Assembly: GCA_025350695.1 (NCBI GenBank)
Contig: JANXXI010000325.1
Span: 1 to 43,054, forward strand
Length of the DNA: 43,054 nucleotides
From: Acidobacteriota bacterium
GTDB lineage: Bacteria > Acidobacteriota > Terriglobia > Bryobacterales > Bryobacteraceae
Reading direction: 5' to 3'
Shown one piece after another: positions 1 to 14,632 of the stretch. The notes beneath the pieces were generated by a model. The model saw nothing but the letters and a program-made list of their open reading frames with translations. It had not been told where the DNA came from and searched no databases. A program made the translations under genes and the position numbers. Position 1 is the first letter of the stretch. The number at the start of each line of letters is the position of its first letter.

Positions 1-1782
1 CACCTCAAGGAATACGAACGGGCTTTGGTGCGTCGAACTCAGGATATGGAGGCAGCCAACCGGCTGGCGGACATGGAACGAGTGCGAGCAGAGGACGCGC
101 TGAGAATTGCCCAACAATCAAAGCTGCAAATTGAGGAACAGGCCGCGCAGCTTCTGATCCAGTCCGAAGAGCTTTCCACGTCAAGAGACTCAGCCCTTGA
201 AGCCTCAAGAATGAAGTCCGAGTTCCTTGCGAATGTCAGCCACGAAATCCGAACGCCAATGAATGGGATCATCGGCATGACGGGCTTGTTGCTTGATTCC
301 CCATTGAGCGTTGAGCAAAGAGAATTCGCTGAAACAGTACGAAGATCGGGAGACTGCCTGCTTGATATTATCAACGACATCTTGGATTTTTCGAAGATCG
401 AAGCCGGCAAGCTGGAGATTGAGTATGTTCCGTTCGACCTTCGCGCAACCATTCAGGATGTAGTCGAACTGCTGGCCGAACGAGCCGATGCCAAGGGGCT
501 GGAGATACTAACCAGTATCCCGGCGGAGGTACCGCAAATAGTTGATGGCGATCCCGGCCGGCTGCGGCAAATTTTGTTGAATTTGGTGGGCAATGCGGTG
601 AAGTTTACGGTTCAAGGCGAAGTTGCCGTGGCGGTTGTCTTTGAAGAGAATGCTGGAGAGGATTTTTCGCTTCGCTTTGAAGTTCGCGACACGGGAGTCG
701 GCCTGGCGCCAGAAACCAAAGCCAATCTGTTCCGGCCCTTTGTTCAATCGCAAGGAGGAGGGGCGCGCAAGCACGGCGGCACCGGGCTCGGATTGGCAAT
801 TTCCCGTCAGTTGGTCGAGTTAATGGGTGGGGATATTGGCGTGGAAAGTGAATTGGGCGCTGGCTCAACGTTTTGGTTTACACTCCAATTCAAAAGTTCG
901 ACCGCTAAACTGGAATATCCACAAGCGGCAACCCTGAATGGGATTCGCGTGCTTTTGGTGGACGATAACCACACCGTTCGACGAACCATTCTGACTCAAC
1001 TTGCCGGAGCGGGAGCGCTCGCGCAGGGTATATCAAGCGCAGAAGATGCACTCGAATTGATACAAACCGTTGAGAGCCGCGGACATGGCTTCGACATCAT
1101 ACTGGTGGACGAGCACATGTCACCGATTTCGGGATCCGACTTCTGCCGGCAAGTCCGAGACACCCCCGATTTGAAATCAGTGAAATTAGTACTCATGACG
1201 CCGTTCAGCCAGCGTAGCAGTGCGCCGTTTAGTGAGACTGGAATCGCCGCGACTTTGTCGAAACCGGTAAGGGAATGGCACCTCCTCGAAACGGTTTCCG
1301 CGTTGGCGGGCGGTTCAGACACGACGAACCCGAGCAGTGACCTGATTCGCCTTCACGAATCCATGGCGCCCCAACCTTCTGCCGATGCCCCCATTCGCGT
1401 TCTGGTCGTCGAAGACAATTTGGTGAGTCAGAAGGTAGCGACCAGACTATTAGAAAAGATGGGCATTAGTGTTGAAATCGCCGTGGACGGCAACGAAGCG
1501 ATCGCGAAAAACACGGAACATAAGTATGCCATGATTCTTATGGATTGCCAGATGCCGAATATGGACGGGTTTGAGGCAACCAAGATTATCCGGGATCGAG
1601 AACAGCCTGGGGAGCACATCCCCATCATCGCAATGACGGCATCAGCAATGAAGGGCGACAAAGAGCGGTGCCTCGCAGCGGGTATGGACGACTACTTAAG
1701 CAAACCGGTTAAATGGGAAAGTATCCGGGAAATGATGAATCTTTGGACTAGACTCATCCGAGAAGCCAACGGGACTAATTGA
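1..1782 (+). CDS. Hybrid sensor histidine kinase with two receiver domains (5' end missing)
   Basis: The reading frame is open to the first base of the window, so the N-terminus, probably a sensor region, is missing. Numbering from the first codon here, residues 1-65 form a charged coiled coil. A HisKA dimerisation domain follows with SHEIRTP and phospho-acceptor His81, then a HATPase_c domain with [11 protein letters not shown] (N box), DTGVGL (G1) and [10 protein letters not shown] (G2). Receiver 1 begins at LLVDDN, and its acceptor should be Asp370 in LVDEHM; it lacks the usual D-x-x-M-P run and may be a divergent receiver. Receiver 2 begins at LVVEDN and has a canonical acceptor, Asp515 in [10 protein letters not shown], plus MTASAM and SKPV. 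There is no HPt domain, so a separate phosphotransfer protein or direct output is expected. The architecture is of the BarA/TodS kind. Kinase assignment is secure; the signal is unknown. Confidence 0.96.
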
Positions 1783-1952
1783 AGAGGAATCTGATCTAGC
1801 TTCTTCAGACTGACGATGGAAGCGAGATCCGCAGCCGGTACAACCTCAAGACGCCACCTCCCCCGAGTTTAGCGCTCATGATCATACCGGCCAACGGAAA
1901 TCTGTATTCAGTTGTAACAGGTCCCTCCCAAGATTGCTAGGGGAAAGTTCGT

Positions 1953-1981
1953 TTCTGGCCCACCTTTTTCTGTTGTATAAT
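1953..1981 (+). promoter_or_regulatory. Possible sigma-70-type promoter before nagA
   Basis: A perfect TATAAT lies at 1976-1981, 44 bases before the nagA start. The best -35 match at 17 bases spacing is TTCTGG (1953-1958), which is poor, so recognition would depend mainly on the -10 box. It is the only good -10 box seen in the gap between the kinase and nagA. Confidence 0.35.
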
Positions 1982-2025
1982 CAATAGCTTAGAAGCCCTC
2001 GATCGGGCAAAACTGTGGATAAAAC

Positions 2026-3189
2026 ATGGAAGAGCTAAAATGTAGTGGGATCGATGCCCTCACAGGGAATGAAATAACACTCAAGGGCGACACTAAGATT
2101 ACCCAAATGGGGCCCCCCCCTATGCGGGGTGGACATATTGCTTCATATGTCGCTCCTGGGTTTGTCGATATTCAGGTAAATGGCTTTGCGGGAGTCGATT
2201 ACAATTCCGGTACCACGCCGCACGACGAAATCGCCCGCTCCATTCAGGCACTTTTCTCGACAGGGGTATCAAGATTCTTCCCTACCGTGATCACAGGGGG
2301 ACCAGACGCCATGCTTGCCGCTCTTCGGAACCTCGCCAAGGCGAAGGAGAGGTTACCGGAGGGATTCGCCATCGAGGGATTCCACGTTGAAGGTCCACAT
2401 ATATGCGTCGAAGATGGACCGCGAGGAGCCCACCCTCGTCAATGGGTTCGAAAACCTGACGTCGAGGAGTATAAACGATGGCAAGAGGCAACTGGCGGAA
2501 GGGTCAAACTAGTCACTCTGGCGCCCGAGTGGCCCGAGGCTCCAGGCTACATAGAAGCACTTGTCATGGACGGCGTAACTGTGGCGATCGGTCATACGGG
2601 GGCAAACCGGGAACAGATTCAAGCGGCTGTTTCGGCGGGGGCCAGCTTGTCCACCCATCTAGGGAATGGGGCTCATGCTAATCTACCTCGTCATCCGAAT
2701 TATATTTGGGAGCAGTTGGCGGAGGACCGTTTGTGGGCGGACTTCATAGTAGACGGAATTCACTTGCCTGAGAGTTTCATTAAGACTGCCCTGCGCGCCA
2801 AGGGCATTGACCGTTCGATTCTTGTAACGGACGCCAGCTCGCCGGCGGGGGCCAAACCTGGACGTTACATGTTGGGCGAGCAGGAAGTGGACCTTACGGC
2901 AGATCAGCGCGTGGTGTTGGCTGGCCAAACACGACTGGCAGGGTCCGCCTTGCGGATGGATGTGGGGGTTTCCAACCTGATGCGGATCTGCGAATTGCCC
3001 TTAAGCGATGCAATCCGCATGTCGACAATCAATCCCGCAATCGTGGGTAAAGTATCTGATCGAACGAAGGGACTCGTCCTCGGCGAACGCGCCGATGTCA
3101 TCGAATTTGAGGTAGTTGATGCTACTAAGGAAATTCGAATTCTTAAGAATTATACAGACGGAAACCTCGTGTATCAATCTCATACTTAA
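2026..3189 (+). CDS. nagA: N-acetylglucosamine-6-phosphate deacetylase
   Basis: Cytoplasmic amidohydrolase that removes acetyl from GlcNAc-6-phosphate to give GlcN-6-phosphate, in amino-sugar and cell-wall recycling. The 387-residue length fits the family. The fold signature APGFVDIQVNGFAG (43-56) is followed by HVEGPH with metal-ligand Glu122, then IGHTGA (His190), STHLGNG (His211), DGIHLP (His246) and the catalytic LVTDA (Asp269), so the metal site and catalytic Asp are all present. The usual THLFNAM block reads THLGNG here. The ATG start has only a weak ribosome binding site. No nagB, PTS or GlcNAc transporter gene is adjacent, which is unlike classical nag operons. It may act on peptidoglycan-derived sugar in this genome. 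Confidence 0.94.
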   Translation: MEELKCSGIDALTGNEITLKGDTKITQMGPPPMRGGHIASYVAPGFVDIQVNGFAGVDYNSGTTPHDEIARSIQALFSTGVSRFFPTVITGGPDAMLAALRNLAKAKERLPEGFAIEGFHVEGPHICVEDGPRGAHPRQWVRKPDVEEYKRWQEATGGRVKLVTLAPEWPEAPGYIEALVMDGVTVAIGHTGANREQIQAAVSAGASLSTHLGNGAHANLPRHPNYIWEQLAEDRLWADFIVDGIHLPESFIKTALRAKGIDRSILVTDASSPAGAKPGRYMLGEQEVDLTADQRVVLAGQTRLAGSALRMDVGVSNLMRICELPLSDAIRMSTINPAIVGKVSDRTKGLVLGERADVIEFEVVDATKEIRILKNYTDGNLVYQSHT

Positions 3190-3305
3190 ACACTTGATTG
3201 GTTGTTCTAGTAGCAATAGTACTTTGGTTGATGTAAACTTACGTAAAAGATTGTTGTGAGTCAAAAGCAACATTCATACATCAACTATTCGACTGGAGGC
3301 ATCTT

Positions 3306-6300
3306 TTGCACATGTTAAGACCAATATTCCCCGTGGTTCTGCTGGCGGCTCTCACTTTTCCCGCTTTCTCGCAGGGCTTAAACACGTCCGCGACCAAGGA
3401 TGACTGGGAAGAAATCAATTTTGCATTTGATTCCGCAACCCTCGTCGACGGGTATCCCAGTCTGTTGCGACTATCGGAGTTGCTGGCCAAGAACCCCACC
3501 TTCAAGGTAAAACTGGTGGGCCATACCGATTGGCACGGATCAAGGCAATATAACGAAAAGTTAGGCTCCTCTCGCTCCCAAACGGTGAAGTCCTTCCTGG
3601 AAAAATATGGCGCTCGCGGCGCTCAGATCGAAATTGTATCACTGGGCAAAGAAAAACCTAAGGCGCCAGGCAAGGATATTAACTCCGACTTGATGAATCG
3701 CCGTGTTGAGATGACGGTGCTTGACGGAAGCGGCAAGCCGATCTCCTCCGGTGGTATTGGCGATGCGATTCGTGGGCTTGAATCCACAAAGACAATGGGC
3801 GAGCAGTGTTGCAGCGAGGTTCTGAAGCGCTTGGACAAACTGGACGACATTCTGGCGATGTTGCGGAACTTGAAGACTGAAAACGAACAGATGAAGCAAC
3901 AGCTGGCTTCCACGGCGGACGGAGTGAAGAGAGCCAATGGAGAGATCGACGACTTAAAGAGCAAGTTGACGGCGCACATGGGCTCTCCCACAACACCACC
4001 TGGATCCGGGGCCGCTTCGATGGGGCCGGCCCAAGGGGCAACTGGTCCGACAGGGTCGGGCCCGATGGGTCCAGTTGGCGGCAGCGGAGATGGCAACACA
4101 ACTGGCAAGAGCAAGAGTTCTTCCAGCGATTCTTCTGACAGCTTCGTGAAGAAATTTGCGTTGCTTGGATTAAATGCCGGTCCGACTTCGGACGGCAAAT
4201 TGACTTTCACCGGAAAGGGCCGATTCTTCAGCAAACTGAACGACAGCACGGCACTGCAATCGGAAGGCGAATACATGTACTTCCGGGATCGGAAAGAAGG
4301 CCAATTCGATCTGGGTTTAGTCAACCGTTACAAGAATGTTCAATTAGGATTGTTCTCGAGCTTCAAGCACGTGACTTTCAGCCAATTTCAAGACGGCGGA
4401 ACGTTGGGACAAGCGGCTTTCACCGCCGACTATGTTTTCAAAAAGGGTCGGCTGGGTGTATTCGGAACCAAGGCATTCATGGACAATGCCGTGGTTAACC
4501 GGGCGCTGTTGACGAGGAATGTCTTCGAGGAAACGTACATGAAGGTGGTTGACCAAATTGGCGCTTCCACGAGCTTTGCGCTTTACAAGGACTTGTACGC
4601 TGAAGCGAACCTCGCCTATTTGAAGAGCCGTTTAAGCAATGACAAACCAGGTGGAACTATCCGGCTGGTTAAGCCGCTGAACACACACATCGCTTTAAGC
4701 GTTGAAGGCGGATTCAATGAGACGCAAATCGGCAAAGATGCGAACGGTCGCGTGGCCTTCGGCGTCTTGTTTGGCAATTATCTTCGCCCTCACACATACG
4801 GCGATCAGACCGGCCCAGTACCGGTCGACATTCCGCGGATCCGCTACGAAATGCTGACCCGAAAGGTCCGAACCGGAAACGATCCGCCAGTGGCCGATGC
4901 TGGTCCCGACCAGTTGGGCATAACAGCGGGCTCGGTGACCTTGGATGGAACCGGTTCCTATTCGCCGGAAGGAAATGCGCTCACCTATCAGTGGACGCAA
5001 ATTGCCGGTCCGGCCGTAACGATCAACAACTCTTCTTCTTCCAAAGCCAGCTTCACCTCGACGGATTCGCAAACCTATTCGTTCCGGTTGACGGTGAAGG
5101 ACGCCTACGGCCAAGGAACGGCGAAGACGACAGTAACGACACGCGCTCCAAATTTGGTGCGAATCATCCGCTTCACGGCGAACCCAGCTTCTATCAAGTC
5201 CGGAGCAACCTCGACGATAGTGTGGCAGGTTGAAAATGCCGACACGGTTGAAATTAGCGGCATAGGCGCGGTGGATAAGACCCAGGGCACGTCGCAAGTG
5301 AGCCCGAAGGAAACCACCACTTACAAAATCACGGCGAAAAACAAGAACAGTGAAGCAAATGAAACCATAACTGTCACGGTTGATAAGCCGGTGGTTCGTA
5401 TTCTAACCTTCTCGGCCTCACCGGCCAATATCAATCCAGGTGGATCATCGACGCTGTCCTGGCTGACCGAAAATGCCGACACGGTTGAGATCGATGGGAT
5501 TGGCAAGGTCAATGTGAATGGCACGAGTATGGTTTCGCCGAGGGAAACAACTACCTACAAGCTGACGGCTCGGAATCAGTTCGGCGATGTCAGCGCCACG
5601 GCTACGGTACAGGTCGGCCCGGCTGGCCCTGGTCCGGGAACGCAAGGACCGAGGATCATACGCTTTGACGCGAATCCGCAGGACATCACCGCTGATCAGA
5701 GTTCTACTTTGACTTGGGTGGTGGAGAATGCTGATACTGTCACTATCACAGGACTTGGAGGCGTTCCATTGACCGGTTCGCGCCAAGTGAATCCTCAACA
5801 GAACACGATCTATACAATTACAGCGACGAACCCCAGTGGACAAGTTTCCTCGACAGTGGGGATTAACGTTCGCCCGGCTGCGCCGAAGCCTCCCGTATTT
5901 GCATCCTGTTCGATCTCCCCGTCGGTGATCAATGCGGGAGACACGGCAATGATCACCTTCACGACTACAAACGCGAACGTGGTAACTTTCAATGGACTGG
6001 GAGTTTCCAGCCCTATTCCGGTGAAGCCAACGGTAGACACCACCTACACGCTAACCGCTTTTGGAGTCAACCAATTGACCACCACTTGCCAAGTGCAAGT
6101 GAAGGTCACCGGAACCCCGACAAGGGTACCCACGGCCAACCCCGGCCCGAACTTCGAGACGTTGTATCGGGAAATCGTTCTGGACGCCGGCCAATCCACT
6201 GATCCTGACGGACTCGCGCTAACTTACAGGTGGAGGATTGTGGATAAGACGGCGGCGATCCTGAATCCCAACTCGCAACGGACAACGGTCCAATTAGGGG

Positions 6301-6404
6301 AACAGTTTGGGCCTTATGCCTTCGAGTTAACAGTCACGAATTCAAAAGGCGTCTCCGCTACAAGCCGCATCGTAGTAAGCTTCATTTCGACCCGCGTATT
6401 CTAA
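3306..6404 (+). CDS. Exported OmpA-domain protein with PKD domains and Ig-like repeats
   Basis: A 1,032-residue envelope protein. Residues 1-24 are a signal peptide (hydrophobic core, then AFSQG). An OmpA-C peptidoglycan-binding domain follows at about 35-145 (NFAFDSATL, GHTD, NRRVE), then a coiled-coil stretch at 160-225, a Gly/Pro/Ser-rich linker with short collagen-like GPx runs at 230-280, a roughly 220-residue region of alternating beta strands, a PKD domain from about 526 (VADAGPDQ), and Ig-like repeats beginning near 619, 698, 783 and 865. A final PKD-like domain starts near 942. OmpA-C is usually C-terminal, so its N-terminal place is unusual. The start may be TTG 3306, six bases after GGAGG, or ATG 3312, twelve bases after it; TTG has the better spacing. 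The likely role is linking peptidoglycan to an extracellular or outer-membrane adhesive structure (inference). Confidence 0.85.
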   Translation: MHMLRPIFPVVLLAALTFPAFSQGLNTSATKDDWEEINFAFDSATLVDGYPSLLRLSELLAKNPTFKVKLVGHTDWHGSRQYNEKLGSSRSQTVKSFLEKYGARGAQIEIVSLGKEKPKAPGKDINSDLMNRRVEMTVLDGSGKPISSGGIGDAIRGLESTKTMGEQCCSEVLKRLDKLDDILAMLRNLKTENEQMKQQLASTADGVKRANGEIDDLKSKLTAHMGSPTTPPGSGAASMGPAQGATGPTGSGPMGPVGGSGDGNTTGKSKSSSSDSSDSFVKKFALLGLNAGPTSDGKLTFTGKGRFFSKLNDSTALQSEGEYMYFRDRKEGQFDLGLVNRYKNVQLGLFSSFKHVTFSQFQDGGTLGQAAFTADYVFKKGRLGVFGTKAFMDNAVVNRALLTRNVFEETYMKVVDQIGASTSFALYKDLYAEANLAYLKSRLSNDKPGGTIRLVKPLNTHIALSVEGGFNETQIGKDANGRVAFGVLFGNYLRPHTYGDQTGPVPVDIPRIRYEMLTRKVRTGNDPPVADAGPDQLGITAGSVTLDGTGSYSPEGNALTYQWTQIAGPAVTINNSSSSKASFTSTDSQTYSFRLTVKDAYGQGTAKTTVTTRAPNLVRIIRFTANPASIKSGATSTIVWQVENADTVEISGIGAVDKTQGTSQVSPKETTTYKITAKNKNSEANETITVTVDKPVVRILTFSASPANINPGGSSTLSWLTENADTVEIDGIGKVNVNGTSMVSPRETTTYKLTARNQFGDVSATATVQVGPAGPGPGTQGPRIIRFDANPQDITADQSSTLTWVVENADTVTITGLGGVPLTGSRQVNPQQNTIYTITATNPSGQVSSTVGINVRPAAPKPPVFASCSISPSVINAGDTAMITFTTTNANVVTFNGLGVSSPIPVKPTVDTTYTLTAFGVNQLTTTCQVQVKVTGTPTRVPTANPGPNFETLYREIVLDAGQSTDPDGLALTYRWRIVDKTAAILNPNSQRTTVQLGEQFGPYAFELTVTNSKGVSATSRIVVSFISTRVF
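5160..5898 (+). repeat. Tandem Ig-like domain repeats inside the OmpA-domain gene
   Basis: Three in-frame units start with the codons at 5160, 5397 and 5652 (periods 237 and 255 bases, 79 and 85 codons). Each opens with R-I-[IL]-x-F and carries ENADTV and a T-T-[TI]-Y-K/T-[IL]-T pattern. A fourth, more divergent unit follows. The 20-base string GAAAATGCCGACACGGTTGA occurs identically at 5232-5251 and 5469-5488, which suggests recent duplication or gene conversion between units 1 and 2. Confidence 0.85.
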
Positions 6405-6428
6405 TCGGGAAAGGACTGGATTGATTGA

Positions 6429-6466
6429 GGGCAGGGAGTTAAGTCCCTGCCCCCTTATTTTGTTAT
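6429..6466 (+). terminator. Intrinsic terminator after the OmpA/Ig gene
   Basis: A perfect 9-bp stem, GGGCAGGGA (6429-6437) with TCCCTGCCC (6444-6452), has a 6-base loop and is followed by a T-rich run (TTATTTTGTTATTT). It sits 25 bases after the stop codon at 6404. Confidence 0.88.
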
Positions 6467-6509
6467 TTGACTTTATCGGCACTTTTTTATCGATGAATAG
6501 TTGTAATAG

Positions 6510-6539
6510 TTGCACATGTAACCCACCAAGGTGTATAGT
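6510..6539 (+). promoter_or_regulatory. Sigma-70-type promoter of the small transcription unit
   Basis: TTGCAC (6510-6515) and TATAGT (6534-6539) are separated by 18 bases, one mismatch to consensus in each box. Transcription would begin near 6546. It lies after one terminator and before another, so it should drive only the short unit that contains the 16-codon ORF. Confidence 0.6.
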
Positions 6540-6557
6540 GTCCTACATGGTTAATCT

Positions 6558-6580
6558 GAGAAAACCTCCTGGGGTTTCTC
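6558..6580 (+). promoter_or_regulatory. 5' leader hairpin of the small transcript
   Basis: GAGAAAACC (6558-6566) pairs with GGTTTCTC (6573-6580) with one bulged A and a 6-base loop. It would form about 12 bases from the predicted transcript start and 26 bases before the ribosome binding site. It could stabilise the 5' end or control translation; which one is not visible from sequence. Confidence 0.45.
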
Positions 6581-6620
6581 TTTAGAGCCAACTAATTGAA
6601 AACTGTAAAGGAGATCAACA

Positions 6621-6671
6621 ATGAAAGTGCGTTCAAATGTGAAAGCTGGCACTGGTCTTTGGGGTGATTAA
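6621..6671 (+). CDS. 16-residue peptide, MKVRSNVKAGTGLWGD
   Basis: ATG at 6621 follows an excellent ribosome binding site, AAAGGAG (6607-6613), with 7 bases between. The frame closes at TAA (6669-6671). The peptide is basic at its N-terminal half (K2, R4, K8) and ends GLWGD. No signal peptide or membrane segment is possible. A complete unit surrounds it: promoter 6510-6539, hairpin 6558-6580, another hairpin GACTAA/TTAGTC (6682-6687 with 6695-6700), and a strong terminator at 6710-6746. From memory only, and unchecked, short bacterial peptides with a similar KVxxNVKAG start exist as uncharacterised small proteins. It could be a genuine micropeptide, a modified-peptide precursor whose maturase lies elsewhere, or a sRNA with an incidental ORF. 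No maturation enzyme is adjacent. Confidence 0.55.
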   Translation: MKVRSNVKAGTGLWGD

Positions 6672-6709
6672 TCATCGCAGCGACTAAACTGGTCTTAGTC
6701 TGAAGTACG

Positions 6710-6746
6710 ACGCCGGGTGGGATAATATCCTCCCGGCGTTTTTATT
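6710..6746 (+). terminator. Intrinsic terminator of the small transcription unit
   Basis: ACGCCGGG (6710-6717) pairs with CCCGGCGT (6732-6739); the stem continues inside with GGAT/ATCC around an AAT loop, and TTTTTATT follows. It is 38 bases after the 16-codon ORF. Together with the predicted start near 6546 it defines an RNA of about 200 nt. Confidence 0.85.
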
Positions 6747-6859
6747 GACACAATCACTTTGTTACTTGATCACTGGTAGATTTTGTGGAAGTGCCAAGGT
6801 ACAGCATACTCCTAGGAATATCTAAAGTTCCTAATACTATCTGACGATTCCAGCCTTAG

Positions 6860-8923
6860 ATGAGGCAAAACGCCAACTCCGCTGTTGTCAACAAGATGAG
6901 TGAGATGTCACATGCAGCAACATGTTATGTTTTTGCTGTGATAGCTCTAGCTTTTCTTGTAATCGGGTTGGATCCATTCACCTGGCATTCGGGCGTCTTA
7001 AGTTTCCTCGGTTTGCTAGCCCTCTGTTCGGCTACGAGCGTCTTGAAAGTGGGACTTCCTGGGATGAGCATCCACCTGTCCGCTAGTTTCCTGGTGCTGA
7101 TTTGGGCTATCGTTCGTCTCGGGTCTGGCGAGGTGTACGTTCTTGGGTGGGCCTCCATTTTGGTGCAATCCCACTGGAAATGTAAACGAAAACCAGCGCT
7201 TGTGCAGCTAGTCTTCAACTTGGCCGTAGTTAGTCTCTCAATTTCCAGTGCCCGGTTAGTCCTTCAAGGCGAGTTGACAAAGCAGTTCGTCCCGCAAGAA
7301 TTATACCGATTAGTTTTGGCCAGTGCCGCCTACTTCGCTGTGAATTCGTTTACCCTGTGCGGCGTGATTGCCTTGACGAAAAACCTTTCTGTTTGGAGCG
7401 TTTGGCGTGAGTCTTATCTGTGGTCATTCCCGCATTATTTGCTAAGCGCCTCCGTTGTTGGGGCTGTAGAGATGATTCGCAAGTATATAGGATTCGAGGT
7501 TGCGTTCCTGATCCTACCGGTTGCCTATTTTCTATATCACACTTACCAAATGCACCTTGCGGCGCTCAACCGGGTAGTCGAAAGAGCGGAGCAGGAAAAG
7601 CGGCATGCCGCAGAAGCCAACGAACTCCATTTGAGGACAATTCGAGCCCTGGCGCTGGCCATTGAGGCAAAGGATCAGACGACGGGCGATCACCTTCACC
7701 GCGTCCAGACCTATGCGCTTGCGCTGGGTAAAGAGTTGAATCTGTCAGTTGAGGAACTGGAAGGGCTGGGGGCCGCTGCCATCCTTCACGATGTCGGTAA
7801 GCTTGCCGTGCCCGAGTACATCATTTCCAAACCCGGGAAATTAACGCCTGAAGAGTTTGCCAAAATGAAGACCCACACAGTGGTTGGATCTGAAATTGTG
7901 GAAAGCGTGCACTTCCCGTTTTCCGTGGCTCCTTTGGTTCGGGCGCATCACGAGAAATGGAACGGGACCGGCTATCCTGACGGACTCAAGGGTGAAGAGA
8001 TACCGATCGGAGCAAGAATACTTTCCGCGGTGGATTGCTTAGACGCGCTGGCAAGCGACCGCCAATACCGGAAAGCAATGCCGCTTGAAAAGGCCATGTC
8101 GATTGTCATCGACGAGTCCGGAAAGAGTTTTGACCCACAAGTGGTTGACGCGCTCAAGTTGCGCTACAAGGAACTGGAGGCGCAAGCGAGAACCACTCTC
8201 AGAACGGGTGATGTAAAACTGTCCATCGACATGGTGGTGCACTGCGGATTCGGACCCGATGCCGGTTATGCAGTGGGTTCAATGATTGAAGGACGGAAGA
8301 TCGGGCTATTGGCCGATGGTGTCGCCAAGGAAGTGACCCTTCTCGATTGCATTTATTCCAGTATTGGCAAATTTGAATCAGTGGAAGACGATGTGTTGGC
8401 AATTGAGAAGCAACTGAGGAGTTTGATTCCCTATGATGGCCTAGCCCTGTATCGGAAGAAGAACGAGACTGTTGAATGCTCGATGGCGTCAGGAGAGGGG
8501 TCGTCCTCACTCCTTGGAATTACGATCCCGCTGGGAGTTGGAGCTTCAGGTTGGGTTGCGGCCAACCGCACCCCTCTATTGAATGGCGTGGCCGCAACGG
8601 AGTTTGGTGTAACCGGAAATATTCCAGTCGACTTTAAGCTTTCTTCGTCGTTGGCAATTCCGCTGGAGTCTGAGTACGGAACCATTGGTGTTTTGACTCT
8701 CTACAGTTTGACGCGCGAATCGTTTGAATCCTGCCACCTTCGAATGCTTTTGGCCATCAGCTCAAAACTGGCTCACCAGCTGCACCTTGAAATGAATGGG
8801 GTCAAACGCGAACGCATCCCCGCGGTATCGAGAGAAGAACAGTCTCTTTCCCTTCAGTTGGAACGCCTCTCCGACGCAGTTGGCGGCAACCTCAATACAC
8901 CTTCAAGGGTTGTTCAACCTTAG
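6860..8923 (+). CDS. Membrane HD-GYP domain protein with C-terminal GAF domain
   Basis: Predicted cyclic-di-GMP phosphodiesterase. Residues about 18-225 hold roughly seven or eight hydrophobic segments (for example CYVFAVIALAFLVIGL), ending in a short coiled coil near 235-260. The HD-GYP domain spans about 265-430, with HLHRVQ, the metal-binding LHDVGK (His310-Asp311), HHEKWNGTGYPDGL (GYP at 371-373) and the following DALASDRQYR. A GAF domain occupies about 530-665, in the unusual position after the catalytic domain. All key HD-GYP residues appear intact, so activity is plausible. The ATG at 6860 directly follows an in-frame TAG and has no clear ribosome binding site; ATG codons at 6896 and 6908 are alternative starts. 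The stop overlaps the convergent gene by 21 bases. Confidence 0.9.
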   Translation: MRQNANSAVVNKMSEMSHAATCYVFAVIALAFLVIGLDPFTWHSGVLSFLGLLALCSATSVLKVGLPGMSIHLSASFLVLIWAIVRLGSGEVYVLGWASILVQSHWKCKRKPALVQLVFNLAVVSLSISSARLVLQGELTKQFVPQELYRLVLASAAYFAVNSFTLCGVIALTKNLSVWSVWRESYLWSFPHYLLSASVVGAVEMIRKYIGFEVAFLILPVAYFLYHTYQMHLAALNRVVERAEQEKRHAAEANELHLRTIRALALAIEAKDQTTGDHLHRVQTYALALGKELNLSVEELEGLGAAAILHDVGKLAVPEYIISKPGKLTPEEFAKMKTHTVVGSEIVESVHFPFSVAPLVRAHHEKWNGTGYPDGLKGEEIPIGARILSAVDCLDALASDRQYRKAMPLEKAMSIVIDESGKSFDPQVVDALKLRYKELEAQARTTLRTGDVKLSIDMVVHCGFGPDAGYAVGSMIEGRKIGLLADGVAKEVTLLDCIYSSIGKFESVEDDVLAIEKQLRSLIPYDGLALYRKKNETVECSMASGEGSSSLLGITIPLGVGASGWVAANRTPLLNGVAATEFGVTGNIPVDFKLSSSLAIPLESEYGTIGVLTLYSLTRESFESCHLRMLLAISSKLAHQLHLEMNGVKRERIPAVSREEQSLSLQLERLSDAVGGNLNTPSRVVQP

Positions 8924-10103
8924 GATATCCACGGCTTCCTCTAAGACCCGCCTTGCGACGTCCGCTTGCGGCTCATTCTTCACACGGATGACACGGTTCT
9001 GGCCTTTGCCCGATGGGGACCACCGGGCGAGCATTCGCTCATCTACCCATCCTCGGAAAGCCGTAATGGACGAAACCCGAAAAGCGGCGGCGGCGTGTTG
9101 TCCGGCGGAGTCATACCCGACATACAGCCTGCTCGCTTCTATTTGCCGGGAGAACGAAGCAAAACTGCCGTGATGAGTCCGGCAACCTGTTGCCGCCGCG
9201 ATCCGACGGGCCAGATCGTGCTCTTCGCTGGAGCCTCCTTCGTCAAGAAGAACATCTAGACCCAGGCCTGTCAGAGAACGGACGGTTTCCAACTCAAACG
9301 TTTCTCCGACTCTTTTGGCGGGGTTGCCTCCGAATCCGAAACTGATGGCGACATCGTTACTGCGTGCTGATGCTGGTTGCGAGGGATTCACCCAGGGAAA
9401 CGCTCCTCCATAGCCAAGGTGGTCGCGTATGAAGTCTCCAGAAAGCTCAGCGATGGACCGTGAGCCTTTGGCTCCAAATGAACGGCTCTCGAAGAAGAAA
9501 TATTGATCGTCGGAGATTACAGGGAGCAGGCCTAGTTGCGTAAGTCTTGAATCCGGATCGAAGACCAGCGAGTTATTTCCGGATAATGCCTTTGCCAGTT
9601 CCTGGCCGGATTTCAGCCGGTCGGCAAGCAGCCCAGACCTCCCGTAGTTGAAGTCAACCAGTTGCAGCCGGGGATCACCGGAAAAGAGTTCGAAGTTCTT
9701 GCGCGGCCCAACAAAGAAGATTTCAGCGGTCGGGTAGAGCGCGGCGGCGGCGGCTAGGAATTGACTGGTTATGGCAATGTCCGCGCCGAGAGTAATGCGG
9801 CTAAGCACGAAGACGCGGCCGACCTCACCAACAAATGCCCTGGGGTGACGAATCCGTTGGTAGCGATCTTGAATTTGCCGTGCCGTTTTTCTAGGGATAA
9901 AACGCGCAATGGCCTCGGAGAAAATGCTAACGTAGCAATCGACTAAGCGCGGGTCGAACCGGTCGCCCAACGGCTCGACCAGTTCCGCGAAGAGCGCTTT
10001 GGTCCCCCGCGGGTCCGCGCAGGAATCTAGCAGTAACTGAAGAGCCTCGCGCGACCAATCGTGGCCAGAAAGGCACTCTTCGAGCAGCTGGCGCGCTAAC
10101 TGT

Positions 10104-10123
<20 letters not shown>
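8903..10123 (-). CDS. GT9 (heptosyltransferase)-like GT-B protein
   Basis: 406 residues, no signal peptide. Residues 1-90 are helical and of no recognised family. From about 96 the pattern is GT-B like: [16 protein letters not shown], then FFVGP, a second Rossmann half from [24 protein letters not shown], and the nucleotide-sugar site region [14 protein letters not shown], matching the D-x-G-x-x-H-x-A-A pattern of GT9 transferases such as WaaC/WaaF. The sugar and acceptor cannot be inferred. The only upstream start is TTG at 10123, directly after an in-frame TAG, with GGAG seven bases before it inside mtnP. The 20-base overlap with mtnP implies translational coupling. It is last in the minus operon and overlaps the HD-GYP gene tail to tail. 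Confidence 0.65.
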
Positions 10124-10960
<837 letters not shown>

Positions 10961-10964
<4 letters not shown>

Positions 10965-11377
10965 ATCAAGTTCTCCTGGATCAATTCTAATAACACTCCG
11001 CCTGTGGAGCGGGGGTGTACAAATATGTAAGTGTGACCGCCGGCGCCAATCCGGGGTTCATTCAAGATCCGCGCCCCTTGGGCTTTCAACTTCGCGACCG
11101 CCGCATTCAAGTCCGGAACGCGTATAGCGATGTGGTGCAGACCTTCGCCGCGTGAGGCGATGAATTTGGCGACCGTCGAATCGGGCTCGGAGGCTTCAAG
11201 AAGCTCGAGTCGCGATTCGCCAGCCGGCAGCATTGCCACTTTGACCTTTTCCGCGGTTACAGTTTCGCGATGCTCCACTTCCATGCCCAGCGCGCCGCAA
11301 TAGAATTCCAGCGCCTGTTCAATAGACTTGACAGCGATGCCCAAGTGGTCAATTGCGAATTTGTTTGAACCATTCAT
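10961..11377 (-). CDS. mce: Methylmalonyl-CoA epimerase
   Basis: 138-residue vicinal-oxygen-chelate (glyoxalase fold) enzyme that interconverts (S)- and (R)-methylmalonyl-CoA. The two beta-alpha-beta modules are visible: [20 protein letters not shown] at the start and [17 protein letters not shown] in the middle, each supplying a metal-ligand His, then [20 protein letters not shown] with further ligands at the end. Its N-terminus overlaps the meaB 3' end by 29 bases with no obvious ribosome binding site, so it is probably translated by coupling or re-initiation. Pairing with meaB and an acyl-CoA dehydrogenase supports the methylmalonyl assignment over other glyoxalase-family roles. Confidence 0.92.
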
Positions 11378-12281
11378 TTACGATTTCGTAAGGGTCGCGG
11401 TCCCGGCGCGCCACCGCTGCTGCCGCTTCTTTGATTTGTTGGCGCGAGACACAGCTCCCAATTTTTTCCTTCCACATCTGCTCAAGACGGGGAACCCACC
11501 GCGCCGCGGCTCTGTCAGCCAGCAAACCCTGAGATAAAAAGGATCGCAAAGCAGAGAGGCTCTGCGCAATTCCCTGCCCTTCTTTGGCGATGGTTTTTAC
11601 AATCGGCGGAACCCAATTATCCGGACGGTGCGCCAGCGACAGCATCATCTGTAATTCGGATTCGAGCTTCGAGGCGCCAGCGAGATCGCTTTTGTTAATG
11701 ATGAATACGTCGGCGATTTCAAGGATACCGGCTTTGATGGCTTGCACATCGTCCCCCATTCCGGGCACCAACACAACGGCAGTGGCGTCGGCCATGCCGG
11801 CAATTTCCACCTCGTCTTGACCCACGCCGACGGTCTCAATCAGCACGGCGTCGAATCTCGCGGCGTCAGCCAGGACCGCAAGGTCCATTGTTGCCGGTGC
11901 AAGGCCGCCCAAGTGCCCGCGAGTGGCCATGGAACGGATGAAGACCTGCGGATCGGCATGATGATCGAGCATGCGGACCCTATCGCCAAGAACGGCGCCA
12001 CCGGAAAAAGGGCTGGTGGGGTCAACGGCAATCACGGCGACGGACTTAGATTCGGCGCGGAGCTCCTTGATCAAGGCCGAGACAAATGTGCTTTTGCCCG
12101 CGCCAGGAGGCCCTGTGATTCCAAATACCACCGCCTTTCCCGTGTGGGGCCACAGCACTCGCAGGAGGGCTTCGGACTCAGCAGACCGGTTTTCAATCGC
12201 GGTCGCGGCCTTGGCAATCGCCCGGGGCTGGCGCAATAGGATCGCTTCAGCCCATTCGGAAATGTGATTGGTTGCAGTCAC
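11349..12281 (-). CDS. meaB: Methylmalonyl-CoA mutase-associated GTPase MeaB
   Basis: G3E-family P-loop GTPase (also called ArgK) that protects and reloads B12-dependent methylmalonyl-CoA mutase. 310 residues. The P-loop GPPGAGKS is at 57-64, followed by [20 protein letters not shown], the family signature [15 protein letters not shown], the G3-region [14 protein letters not shown] and the guanine-specificity NKSD. The start is GTG at 12281, sharing GTGA with the acyl-CoA dehydrogenase stop. The mutase itself is not in the window, so the operon must act with mut genes elsewhere. Confidence 0.95.
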
Positions 12282-13420
12282 TGCTTAAGCAGTTGCCTGG
12301 CGATAACCATTCGCTGAATCTCGCTGGTGCCTTCGCCGATAGTGCAGAGTTTAACGTCGCGATAAAACTTCTCTACAGGGTAATCTTTTATGAAGCCATA
12401 GCCGCCATGAATCTGGACTGCTTCATTGCAAATATCCACCGCCGCTTCCGAGGCGAATAGCTTCGCCATGGCCGATTGCTTGTTCACCGATTGCCCTTGA
12501 TCCTTCAGCCAGCCAGCGCGGTAGGTAAGCAGCCGAGCGGCGTCAATATTCATCGCCATGTCGGCCAGTTTATGTTGGATAACTTGGAACTCGGAGATAG
12601 GTTTGCCGAACTGTTTGCGCTGCTTGCTGTATTGAATCGCCGCCTCATAGGCTCCCTGAGCGATACCCAACGAGAGTGCGGCAATTGAAATGCGCCCGCC
12701 GTCGAGGATGCGGAGGCTATCCACAAAGCCTTCCCCGATATTGCCCAGCAGATTCGCTTCGGGCAGACGGCAATCATCGAAAATCACCTCACCGGTATCG
12801 CTGGCGCGCATGCCCAGCTTGTTTTCTTTCTTCCCCAGTTTGAAGCCAGGCGTTCCTTTTTCGATGATGAAAGCGGAGATACCGTGGTGAGAGCTTGATC
12901 GATCGGTTACGGCCATGGCGACGCAAACATCGGCGTGGTGGGCGTTGGTCGTAAATGTTTTCGATCCATTCAGCACCCAGCTATCGCCATCGCGAACGGC
13001 TGTGCTTCGAGTGCCGCCGGCGTCTGAGCCTGCTTCGGGTTCAGTGAGTGACCAGCAGCCGATCCATTCGCCAGTCGCCAGTTTCGGAATGTATTTCAAT
13101 TTCTGATCCTCGTTGCCGGCGAGGAAAATATGATTGGAACAGAGGGAGTTGTGGGCAGCCACGATGAGGCCAATCGACCCATCGACGCGCGATAACTCTT
13201 CGATGACGATGGCATAGTCGATGTACCCGAGCCCGGCTCCACCGAGTTCTTCAGGAAAAATAACGCCTAGACAACCCAGATTGCCCAGTTTCTTTACGAC
13301 TTCAAGCGGGAAGGTCTGGGCTTCGTCCCAAAGCATGACGTAAGGCTTGATCTCCGCTTCGGCGAATTCGCGGATCTGTTTTCGAAGTTCAATTTGTTCG
13401 GGGGAGAACGAAAACTCCAT
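12278..13420 (-). CDS. Acyl-CoA dehydrogenase
   Basis: 380-residue FAD flavoenzyme that desaturates acyl-CoA at the alpha-beta position and passes electrons to ETF. It has the helical N-terminal domain, the FAD-site strands [14 protein letters not shown] (ACAD signature 1) and the C-terminal signature [20 protein letters not shown]. The catalytic base is Glu363 in [10 protein letters not shown], the position used by short- and medium-chain and butyryl-CoA dehydrogenases, not the isovaleryl or long-chain position. Chain-length preference cannot be set from sequence. Context with mce and meaB suggests breakdown of branched or odd-chain acyl-CoA feeding the methylmalonyl route. The start lies 12 bases after the upstream oxidoreductase stop. 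Confidence 0.95.
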
Positions 13421-13432
13421 GATATTTGCTCG

Positions 13433-14632
13433 CTAAACTATTTCTTCTTTGTCAGCGTCCCAGCGCATGGTGCGGCCCTGGCGGTAGCTTTCGACCGCCA
13501 TTCTGCAGGCGATCGAAACGCGGAAGCCCACGTCGAACGGGCAATTGGTTTGGGTGCTGTTCCGGATGGAGTCGAAAAAATTTTGCATGTGAGCCTGAGG
13601 AGCCGTCTTGGTTTGGCCGACAATTTCCACGGCTTTTGGACGGTTGACGATTTGGGGGATATAGCGAATTTGCTGGCTCTTCATGATGCTGCCTTCGTCG
13701 CCCAAGATGTGTTCAGCCGCGCCTAGCTGGCTATTGCCAAACCCGGAACTCCAACTGAAGAGAAGGTCTTCGGGATGCTGCATCGTGACTGACATTGTGT
13801 CGGGAACTTCGCGGCCGTCTTTCCACAGATAGACGCCACCGACCATTGTCACCGCGTTAGGGATCTGCAAGTTCATGCACTTGTACCAGAAACTGAGTTG
13901 GTGGCAAAGATTCTCATATACATTGCCCCCAGAGTAGTCCCAAAAGAATCGCCAGTTGATGTAACGGTTGGCGTCGAACTCACGCTGCGGGGCGTCGCCC
14001 AGAAATTTACTCCACAGAATGTTCTCCGGCGTCATATCGGGGAACACGGGCCGGGACCACTGTGGTTTGCCGCGCGGCGTGTTGCGATACATGTGAGATT
14101 CAATGGCCGTGATTTGGCCGAGGATGTTCTGACCAAGGAAGTTCATTGCGTCAGTGACTTGGCCAGAGGAGCACGATTGATGCCCAATTTGCACGGTTCG
14201 ATTGGCTGCCTTGGTGTAAGCTGCCCGCATGCGCTTGGCGTGCTCGACGGTGAAGGCCATCGTCTTTTCCTGGTAGACGTGCTTGCCTGCCTCCAGCGAG
14301 TCAACGAAGTGTTGGCAATGTAAGTGTTGGGGCGTCGAGATCAGCACCGCGTCGATGGCTTTGTCTTCGAGCAGATAACGATGGTCAAGGTAAGTCTTGG
14401 CATTTGGCGCAAGCGTTTTCGCAGCTTCAAGGCGCGCCGTGTAGATATCTGAGAAAGCGACAATTTCGGCATTTGGACAGGCCATGGCATCGCGCGTGAT
14501 TTCAGTACCACGGGCTCCGATTCCAATGACGCCGACGCGGATGCGATCATTTGCCCCGAGGACTTTGCCTGGGGCGGCCATCACAGCCAACCCGGACGCC
14601 ACATTGCCGATGAAGTTTCTTCGGGAACTCAT
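13433..14632 (-). CDS. Gfo/Idh/MocA oxidoreductase with Tat-type signal
   Basis: 399-residue NAD(P)-binding oxidoreductase. The N-terminus MSSRRNFIGNVASGLAVMAA looks like a Tat signal. The Rossmann loop VGVIGIGARG is at 33-42, and the family EK signature appears as YQEKTMAFT, with Thr replacing the usual Pro after EK. The C-terminal alpha/beta domain includes the WDYSGG and CHQLSFW regions seen in the exported acidobacterial and planctomycete group. The substrate is probably a sugar or sugar acid (family inference only). It is first in the minus operon, and its function is not obviously tied to the methylmalonyl genes downstream. Confidence 0.88.
   Translation of the reverse strand: MSSRRNFIGNVASGLAVMAAPGKVLGANDRIRVGVIGIGARGTEITRDAMACPNAEIVAFSDIYTARLEAAKTLAPNAKTYLDHRYLLEDKAIDAVLISTPQHLHCQHFVDSLEAGKHVYQEKTMAFTVEHAKRMRAAYTKAANRTVQIGHQSCSSGQVTDAMNFLGQNILGQITAIESHMYRNTPRGKPQWSRPVFPDMTPENILWSKFLGDAPQREFDANRYINWRFFWDYSGGNVYENLCHQLSFWYKCMNLQIPNAVTMVGGVYLWKDGREVPDTMSVTMQHPEDLLFSWSSGFGNSQLGAAEHILGDEGSIMKSQQIRYIPQIVNRPKAVEIVGQTKTAPQAHMQNFFDSIRNSTQTNCPFDVGFRVSIACRMAVESYRQGRTMRWDADKEEIV

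Follow-up and report, generated by a model that had tools for sequence, protein, structure and literature searches.

Organization of the transcription unit

A compact unit lies at positions 6510–6746 of the window, the whole stretch of 43,054 nucleotides of Bryobacteraceae DNA that was analyzed. It stands downstream of an OmpA/PKD-like gene (3306–6404) and an amidohydrolase-like gene (2026–3189), both assigned by eye and both syntenic in a second genome of the same genus. An HD-domain gene (6860–8923) is found downstream of the unit, and in the second genome it does not adjoin the peptide copies. A sequence-only reading of this DNA had described a promoter, two flanking intrinsic terminators, a 5′ hairpin, and a Shine-Dalgarno sequence with a correctly spaced 16-codon ORF, and all of these were confirmed as follows.

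6429–6452, + strand: intrinsic terminator of the upstream gene, forming the upstream border of the unit (9-pair stem, 7 G-C, T-rich tail)
6510–6539, + strand: sigma-70-type promoter, TTGCAC (6510–6515), 18 bases, TATAGT (6534–6539), read directly
6558–6580, + strand: hairpin GAGAAA...TTTCTC of the 5′ untranslated region, read directly and present in the predicted fold
6607–6613, + strand: Shine-Dalgarno sequence AAAGGAG with the ATG 7 bases downstream, read directly
6621–6671, + strand: 16-codon ORF MKVRSNVKAGTGLWGD, ATG at 6621 and stop TAA at 6669–6671, read directly and conserved
6621–6650, + strand: codons 1–10, conserved leader MKVRSNVKAG, from the family-wide pattern and the repeats in long relatives
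6651–6668, + strand: codons 11–16, variable core TGLWGD with Trp third from the end, from family comparison
6711–6746, + strand: intrinsic terminator, stem 6711–6738 and T run from 6739, read directly and in the fold, listed in part by the terminator scan

The second hairpin of the sequence-only reading can be drawn at 6682–6700 but is missing from the predicted minimum-energy fold. In that predicted fold, positions 6611–6617, part of the Shine-Dalgarno region, pair with 6690–6696 on the 3′ side of the stop codon, and this pairing could tune translation.

Consensus scans of positions 5400–8000 found six promoter-like sites against 2.0 expected and three terminator-like sites against 2.7 expected. 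Since both scans are near chance, the case for the unit rests on comparison with relatives.

Conservation of the ORF within the genus

A blastn comparison with related genomes, which the sequence-only reading had suggested, was performed with a 246-base region against 61 genomes. The same-genus genome (G001, locus L030) contains two neighboring copies of the unit, preceded by a gene homologous to the one upstream in the window. The remaining matches in the 61 genomes were short (E 0.009–0.99), and the two inspected (L009 and L015) both lay in unrelated sequence. In the window's own genome (G000), the region has a single real match, itself; five others cover 15–25 bases at E values of 1.5 or more.

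Each G001 copy carries the ORF MKVRSNVKAGMAVWGD with AAGGAGA upstream. Copy 1 has a promoter (TTGCAA-17-TATAGT) at the place corresponding to that of the window, and the promoter scan of G001 listed none before copy 2. A T-tailed stem was read by eye 3′ of each copy, and on the copies' strand the automatic scan reports a single terminator, the one preceding copy 1. Hairpins also precede the Shine-Dalgarno sequence in both copies, unlike that of the window in sequence and shape. The downstream neighbor is an HD-domain protein in G000 versus a convergent ORF in G001.

Across the three pairs formed by the window and the two G001 copies, codon positions 1, 2, and 3 take 2, 4, and 18 substitutions, respectively. 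The window differs from the copies by 5 and 7 synonymous codons (null P 0.012 and 0.00026) and from each by 3 non-synonymous codons, all within codons 11–13. The copies themselves are 3 synonymous codons apart (P 0.008). Because the substitutions are mostly third-position and synonymous across syntenic copies, this comparison indicates that the 16-codon ORF is a real, conserved coding gene.

Alternatively, the unit could specify a small regulatory RNA and contain the ORF only by chance, as the sequence-only reading had also allowed. It has its own promoter, hairpins, and terminator, and the folding z-score of its transcript against shuffles was −3.1 (0 of 200 as good), for which, in our reading, the terminator would account. 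However, the third-position bias and an ORF intact in all three copies argue against this explanation, as do 5′ hairpins that vary while the ORF is kept and the occurrence of the same peptide type in tandem arrays within other sequence contexts. When the window was scanned against Rfam, the unit had no match at the gathering score, and a tRNA elsewhere was the only match. We regard a regulatory RNA as highly improbable.

Distribution and diversity of the peptide family

The DNA pattern of the ten-residue leader occurred in 44 stretches of a genome-contig collection and 2 of a viral-contig collection. The 44 stretches contain 59 distinct leader-pattern sites, 56 of which are closed ORFs no longer than 60 residues, and GGAG, GAGG, or AGGA lies within 18 bases upstream of 57 of the 59 sites, compared to 136 of 1088 ATGs drawn at random from these stretches. 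The record titles name Acidobacteriota, Methylococcaceae, Nitrospira, Burkholderiales, Planctomycetota, and Anaerolineae, among others. Tandem copies with varying C-termini are frequent, with seven in L035, five each in L076 and L060, and three in L077. The ORFs of the two viral contigs (IMG/VR; L078:9073, MKVRTNVKAGGMSRCFERLE, and L079:2296, MKVKSNVKAGKPAKCPGKIFC) share the ten-residue start and may reflect chance or prophage cargo.

A looser leader pattern was found in 26 of 237 genomes of the same family (Bryobacteraceae); the reversed control pattern matched in only 1. In G000, the window's peptide is the sole match genome-wide, with none or one mismatch allowed.

The pattern fixes the leader only. 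Trp was third from the end in 24 of 37 short ORFs, mainly from the same-family set, a count that takes in seven from L035, a Terriglobia record that may lie outside Bryobacteraceae. In the wider genome-contig set, Trp was at this place in only 9 of 34 short ORFs, so cores other than the Trp type exist in the family. Among 35 distinct members picked as Trp-type, from seven genera in all, 27 are 16-mers, and the commonest form is that of the window, 10 plus 6 residues ending mostly in W-G-(T/S/D/A/E). The Trp in 42 of 42 entries of the Trp-type tally is by selection; the unselected counts are the two above and the 15 of 21 given below.

Long relatives were also found. The 186-residue ORF at L164:1501–2058 has eight leader-like units of the VKSKVKAGG type between nine NHNQ cores, and those at L143, L229, and L071 are likewise chains of leader-like units and NHNQ cores. 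They are apparently multi-product precursors, and leader-like repeats between the cores are as expected of a cleavage element. A plasmid search with one long NHNQ ORF gave no match.

The window's 16-mer is below the 20-residue limit of the Pfam and NCBIfam scan, and longer relatives were scanned in its place. Eight relatives of 23–101 residues gave no convincing family, with all NCBIfam matches below cut-off. The Pfam model PmbA_TldD_1st exceeded its cut-off on a repetitive 101-residue ORF; no stretch of that ORF passes alone, and the match was taken for chance. Furthermore, among the matches listed from the open-licence literature, there was no paper on this family. The family is apparently undescribed.

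Genes of 15–22 codons fall below the usual gene-caller limit, and the family may thus be absent from most annotations. Opposite two arrays, antisense ORFs with GAPN-type repeats were observed at L196:7500–7820 and L193:7211–7507 (107 and 99 residues); being longer than the real peptide genes, they could be annotated in their place.

An attenuator leader peptide that senses Trp for a downstream gene was also considered, since the ORF is short, contains one Trp, and precedes a terminator. However, the Trp is single, up to four or five neighboring copies occur in arrays elsewhere, and the downstream neighbors are unlike in G000 and G001. The N-terminal leader is, moreover, the conserved part. This is the least credible of the explanations considered here.

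A C39-peptidase ABC exporter near the peptides

The neighboring genes were clustered at the 46 peptide loci, which are not all independent: two contigs occur twice, some genomes are repeated, and L036 is the G001 locus. Two viral loci among them exceed 8 kb. An ABC exporter with an N-terminal C39 domain and a second ABC protein form one cluster present at 15 loci, and a HlyD-like protein lies near the exporter in 9 of the 15. By a subfamily profile, a single C39 subfamily occurs in 13 of the 46 loci. Peptidase_C39 (PF03412) was above the Pfam cut-off in both exporters scanned, from G000 and L063. The catalytic C, H, and D are conserved in 13 of 13 aligned members; a Gln is also conserved in the 13, the domain having been excised by a motif that contains this Gln.

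The best exporter match had an E value of 2.9e-153 or better in 4 of 41 genomes and 2.4e-36 or worse in the other 37. This gap sets the specific exporter clearly apart from generic ABC proteins. In G000, it is encoded on another contig (C364; L110:6880–9573, minus strand) as an open frame with 47% identity to the query, and contig coordinates place it no closer than about 19 kb to the peptide, even were the two contigs contiguous. The exporter is an open frame in G001 as well.

A HlyD homologue at E 1e-10 was present in three of the six genomes searched, and none was found in G000, G001, or G619. Export in these three may therefore rely on a different fusion protein or stop at the periplasm. 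The place next to the exporter that is occupied by the HlyD gene in other genomes holds, in G000, genes for a methyltransferase-like protein and a histidine kinase (L110:9519–11734). Beside the G001 exporter, the kinase is present and the methyltransferase is absent.

These data bear on whether the peptide of the window's genus is no longer exported and is a relic or has a cytoplasmic role. The missing HlyD match in G000 and G001 and the location of the exporter on a different contig would fit this. However, the exporter is open and retains the catalytic C, H, and D in both genomes, and the peptide is under constraint and duplicated in G001. We consider loss of export unlikely.

Co-occurrence of peptide and exporter

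The exporter was detected in 35 of the 237 same-family genomes. It was present in 21 of 26 peptide genomes compared to 14 of 211 others (P 1.9e-16), and in 13 of 18 compared to 14 of 211 (P 2.3e-10) without the eight genomes that have both linked. By genus, 13 of 14 with the peptide have the exporter, compared to 3 of 62 without (P 4.9e-11). The P values for co-occurrence are optimistic because the genomes are related, kinship being addressed in the genus-level test alone. The exporter query was picked for lying beside a peptide, which the unlinked test answers in part. Unlinked mostly means separate contigs of draft assemblies, some in hundreds of contigs (G524, G487, and G562 among them). 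The sole measured unlinked distance is in G523 (4 contigs), where the array and the exporter are about 1.4 Mb apart on the same contig.

In a phylum sample of 396 genomes, the exporter was found in 11, comprising 4 of 4 real peptide genomes and 7 of 392 others (P 3.3e-7). The control pattern matched in 1 of 396. The pattern match of G376 is interrupted by an in-frame stop and is not counted here; with it included, the count becomes 4 of 5 (P 1.6e-6).

No exporter was detected in five of the 26 peptide genomes. If exporter-only genomes hold peptides missed by the exact pattern, one mismatch should reveal them. At one mismatch, peptides were found in 8 of 14 exporter-only genomes compared to 0 of 16 exporter-less genomes (P 5e-4, no control matches), a contrast that is not phylogenetically balanced because all 16 controls belong to two genera. 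The other six exporter-only genomes were still without a peptide at one mismatch. The Trp motif ends 15 of the 21 newly found ORFs, at least one in each of the eight genomes, with cores including RALWGA, NSSWGS, SAIWGA, GSVWGD, and SIIWGS.

Among the genomes surveyed, the exporter is shown by these counts to go with the peptide in both location and genome content. The sequence-only proposal of a conserved micropeptide or peptide precursor is thus supported, with an ORF kept through synonymous changes and a leader-plus-core family tied to a C39-peptidase exporter. Its small-RNA option finds no support, and it had anticipated neither an exporter nor so wide a family nor a recurrent Trp.

Leader features and comparison with known systems

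The leader ends in AG in 30 and SG in 5 of the 35 distinct Trp-type members. Position −4 is V, I, or L, and position −7 is polar in all 35, which are too short for a position −12. Hydrophobic or small residues (V3, S/T5, V7, A9) alternate with polar residues, and the strand moment of five leaders was 0.90–1.06 compared to a helix moment of 0.23–0.43. Based on this alternation, an extended strand fits better than a helix.

In the portion of PMC10885120 drawn on here, C39 substrates have GG, GA, or GS before the cleavage site and hydrophobic residues at −4, −7, and −12, and LahT150 leaves leaders without those residues in place. Tested against these rules as given there, the peptide leader lacks GG/GA/GS and deviates at −7 and −12. 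Because the leader fails the double-glycine rules, exporter logic is claimed here and not membership in the double-glycine leader class.

The PCAT/AMS transporters (ComA, LahT, and PCAT1) share with the present system a C39 peptidase-ABC exporter (PF03412) with intact catalytic residues. They also share an N-terminal leader ending in Gly and the use of one leader for several precursors whose cores differ. By sequence, 4ry2 and its relatives are the nearest C39 domains of solved structure, followed by ComA (5xe8/3k8u). However, the leader of the present family has 10 residues, an AG or SG end, and a polar −7, and the core often has 6 residues.

The NHLP/NHLM systems (TIGR03794, TIGR03796, and TIGR03797) have the same three-part layout of HlyD-like protein, C39-ABC exporter, and second ABC protein. 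Their precursors, as described in the same portion of PMC10885120, carry a long Nif11 or nitrile-hydratase leader, which the present family does not have. The proteins scanned also scored far below the curated cut-offs, at 190.5 vs 853.3 bits for the C39-ABC protein of L063 against TIGR03796 and 65 vs 156.2 bits for the HlyD protein of L063. The second ABC protein of L040, which ends at the locus edge, scored 107 vs 709.4 bits.

Gram-positive peptide pheromones of the Phr, SHP, and PapR type are exported by other routes. Like the product proposed here, they are short runs of plain residues encoded by small genes, whereas the host phylum here is Gram-negative. Based on these sequence comparisons, we rate the peptide as of the exporter-processed kind with an unusually short, different leader, and not as a canonical double-glycine member.

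Neighboring regulators and candidate modification genes

FHA-GAF-sigma-54 activator genes are divergent from Trp-type arrays in three genera (L193:5276–7153, L195:8361–10430, and L196:4991–6949). These activators are mutual best full-length matches in their genomes. Using the −24/−12 consensus, sigma-54-like sites before two of the arrays scored above shuffles (P 0.003 and 0.006), with P 0.30 for the third. Of 1456 background stretches, 14 also reached a score of 10. Scores in nine other upstream regions, including that of the window, ranged from 6 to 8. No relative of the activator was found in positions 1–14000 of the window.

At three Chloroflexi/Anaerolineae loci, related TPR-type regulators were found near the arrays, and the L077 member has HTH, NB-ARC, and TPR domains. 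Two-component-regulator propeller (sensor) genes lie beside Trp-type peptides at L201:4458–7757 and L202:1379–3598. They cluster with a hybrid kinase-like gene of the window (25–1782) and its G001 counterpart.

Near the peptides of five Methylococcales/Nitrospira loci, a MauG/MbnH-like di-heme protein is encoded (L042:350–4948, L050, L061, L065, and L075), and a protein of about 615 residues occurs near the peptides in seven loci (L042, L043, L050, L055, L065, L069, and L075). One member of each cluster was scanned, from L042, and that of the 615-residue protein had no Pfam or NCBIfam match. At the di-heme loci, oxidative modification of those peptides is possible.

These neighbors are relevant to a bacteriocin-like or RiPP precursor, in which the core would be antimicrobial or would be modified, for example at Trp, by an enzyme encoded elsewhere. 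The cores are variable and arrayed, the di-heme and 615-residue proteins occur near peptides, and RiPPs and bacteriocins are commonly served by C39 exporters according to the portion of PMC10885120 used here. However, no modification or immunity gene was recognized among the scanned neighbor clusters of the short Trp-type members. A core of six residues is also small for a bacteriocin. We regard a bacteriocin or RiPP as possible, if somewhat doubtful.

Proposed mechanism and significance

We consider it likely that 6510–6746 is a stand-alone gene encoding an exported pre-peptide of 16 residues, composed of a leader and a hexapeptide and served by a dedicated C39-ABC exporter. In this mechanism, the 16-mer would be translated from its own gene. 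The leader MKVRSNVKAG would serve as the element for exporter recognition and cleavage, bound by the C39 domain of the C364-encoded exporter, probably as an extended strand, and cut after Ala-Gly, i.e., after Gly10. The core TGLWGD would be the released hexapeptide, moved out of the cytoplasm by the ABC exporter.

Outside the cell, TGLWGD would most likely be a short signaling peptide, a role to which we give slightly less than even confidence. A signal is favored over a bacteriocin on the grounds of the very small core, the lack of a recognizable modification or immunity gene among the neighbor clusters scanned, and the activators beside the arrays in three genera. More tentatively still, the ten-residue strand-like leader, the distinct C39-ABC exporter, the hexapeptides whose third-last residue is Trp, and the multi-core NHNQ precursors of sister lineages may together constitute a peptide communication system that crosses phyla and relies on a new export code.

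The family is possibly unannotated, yet its exact ten-codon pattern occurs in 26 of 237 Bryobacteraceae genomes. If export holds true, a secreted-peptide language would be at hand for a major soil phylum, a very short leader would be usable as an export tag, and concrete hexapeptides would be named for synthesis and testing. If the communication reading is also true, the Acidobacteriota would possess peptide pheromones, encoded in part by orphan genes of 16 codons dispersed at a distance from the exporter, and the exported peptide is possibly a chemical message between soil bacteria.
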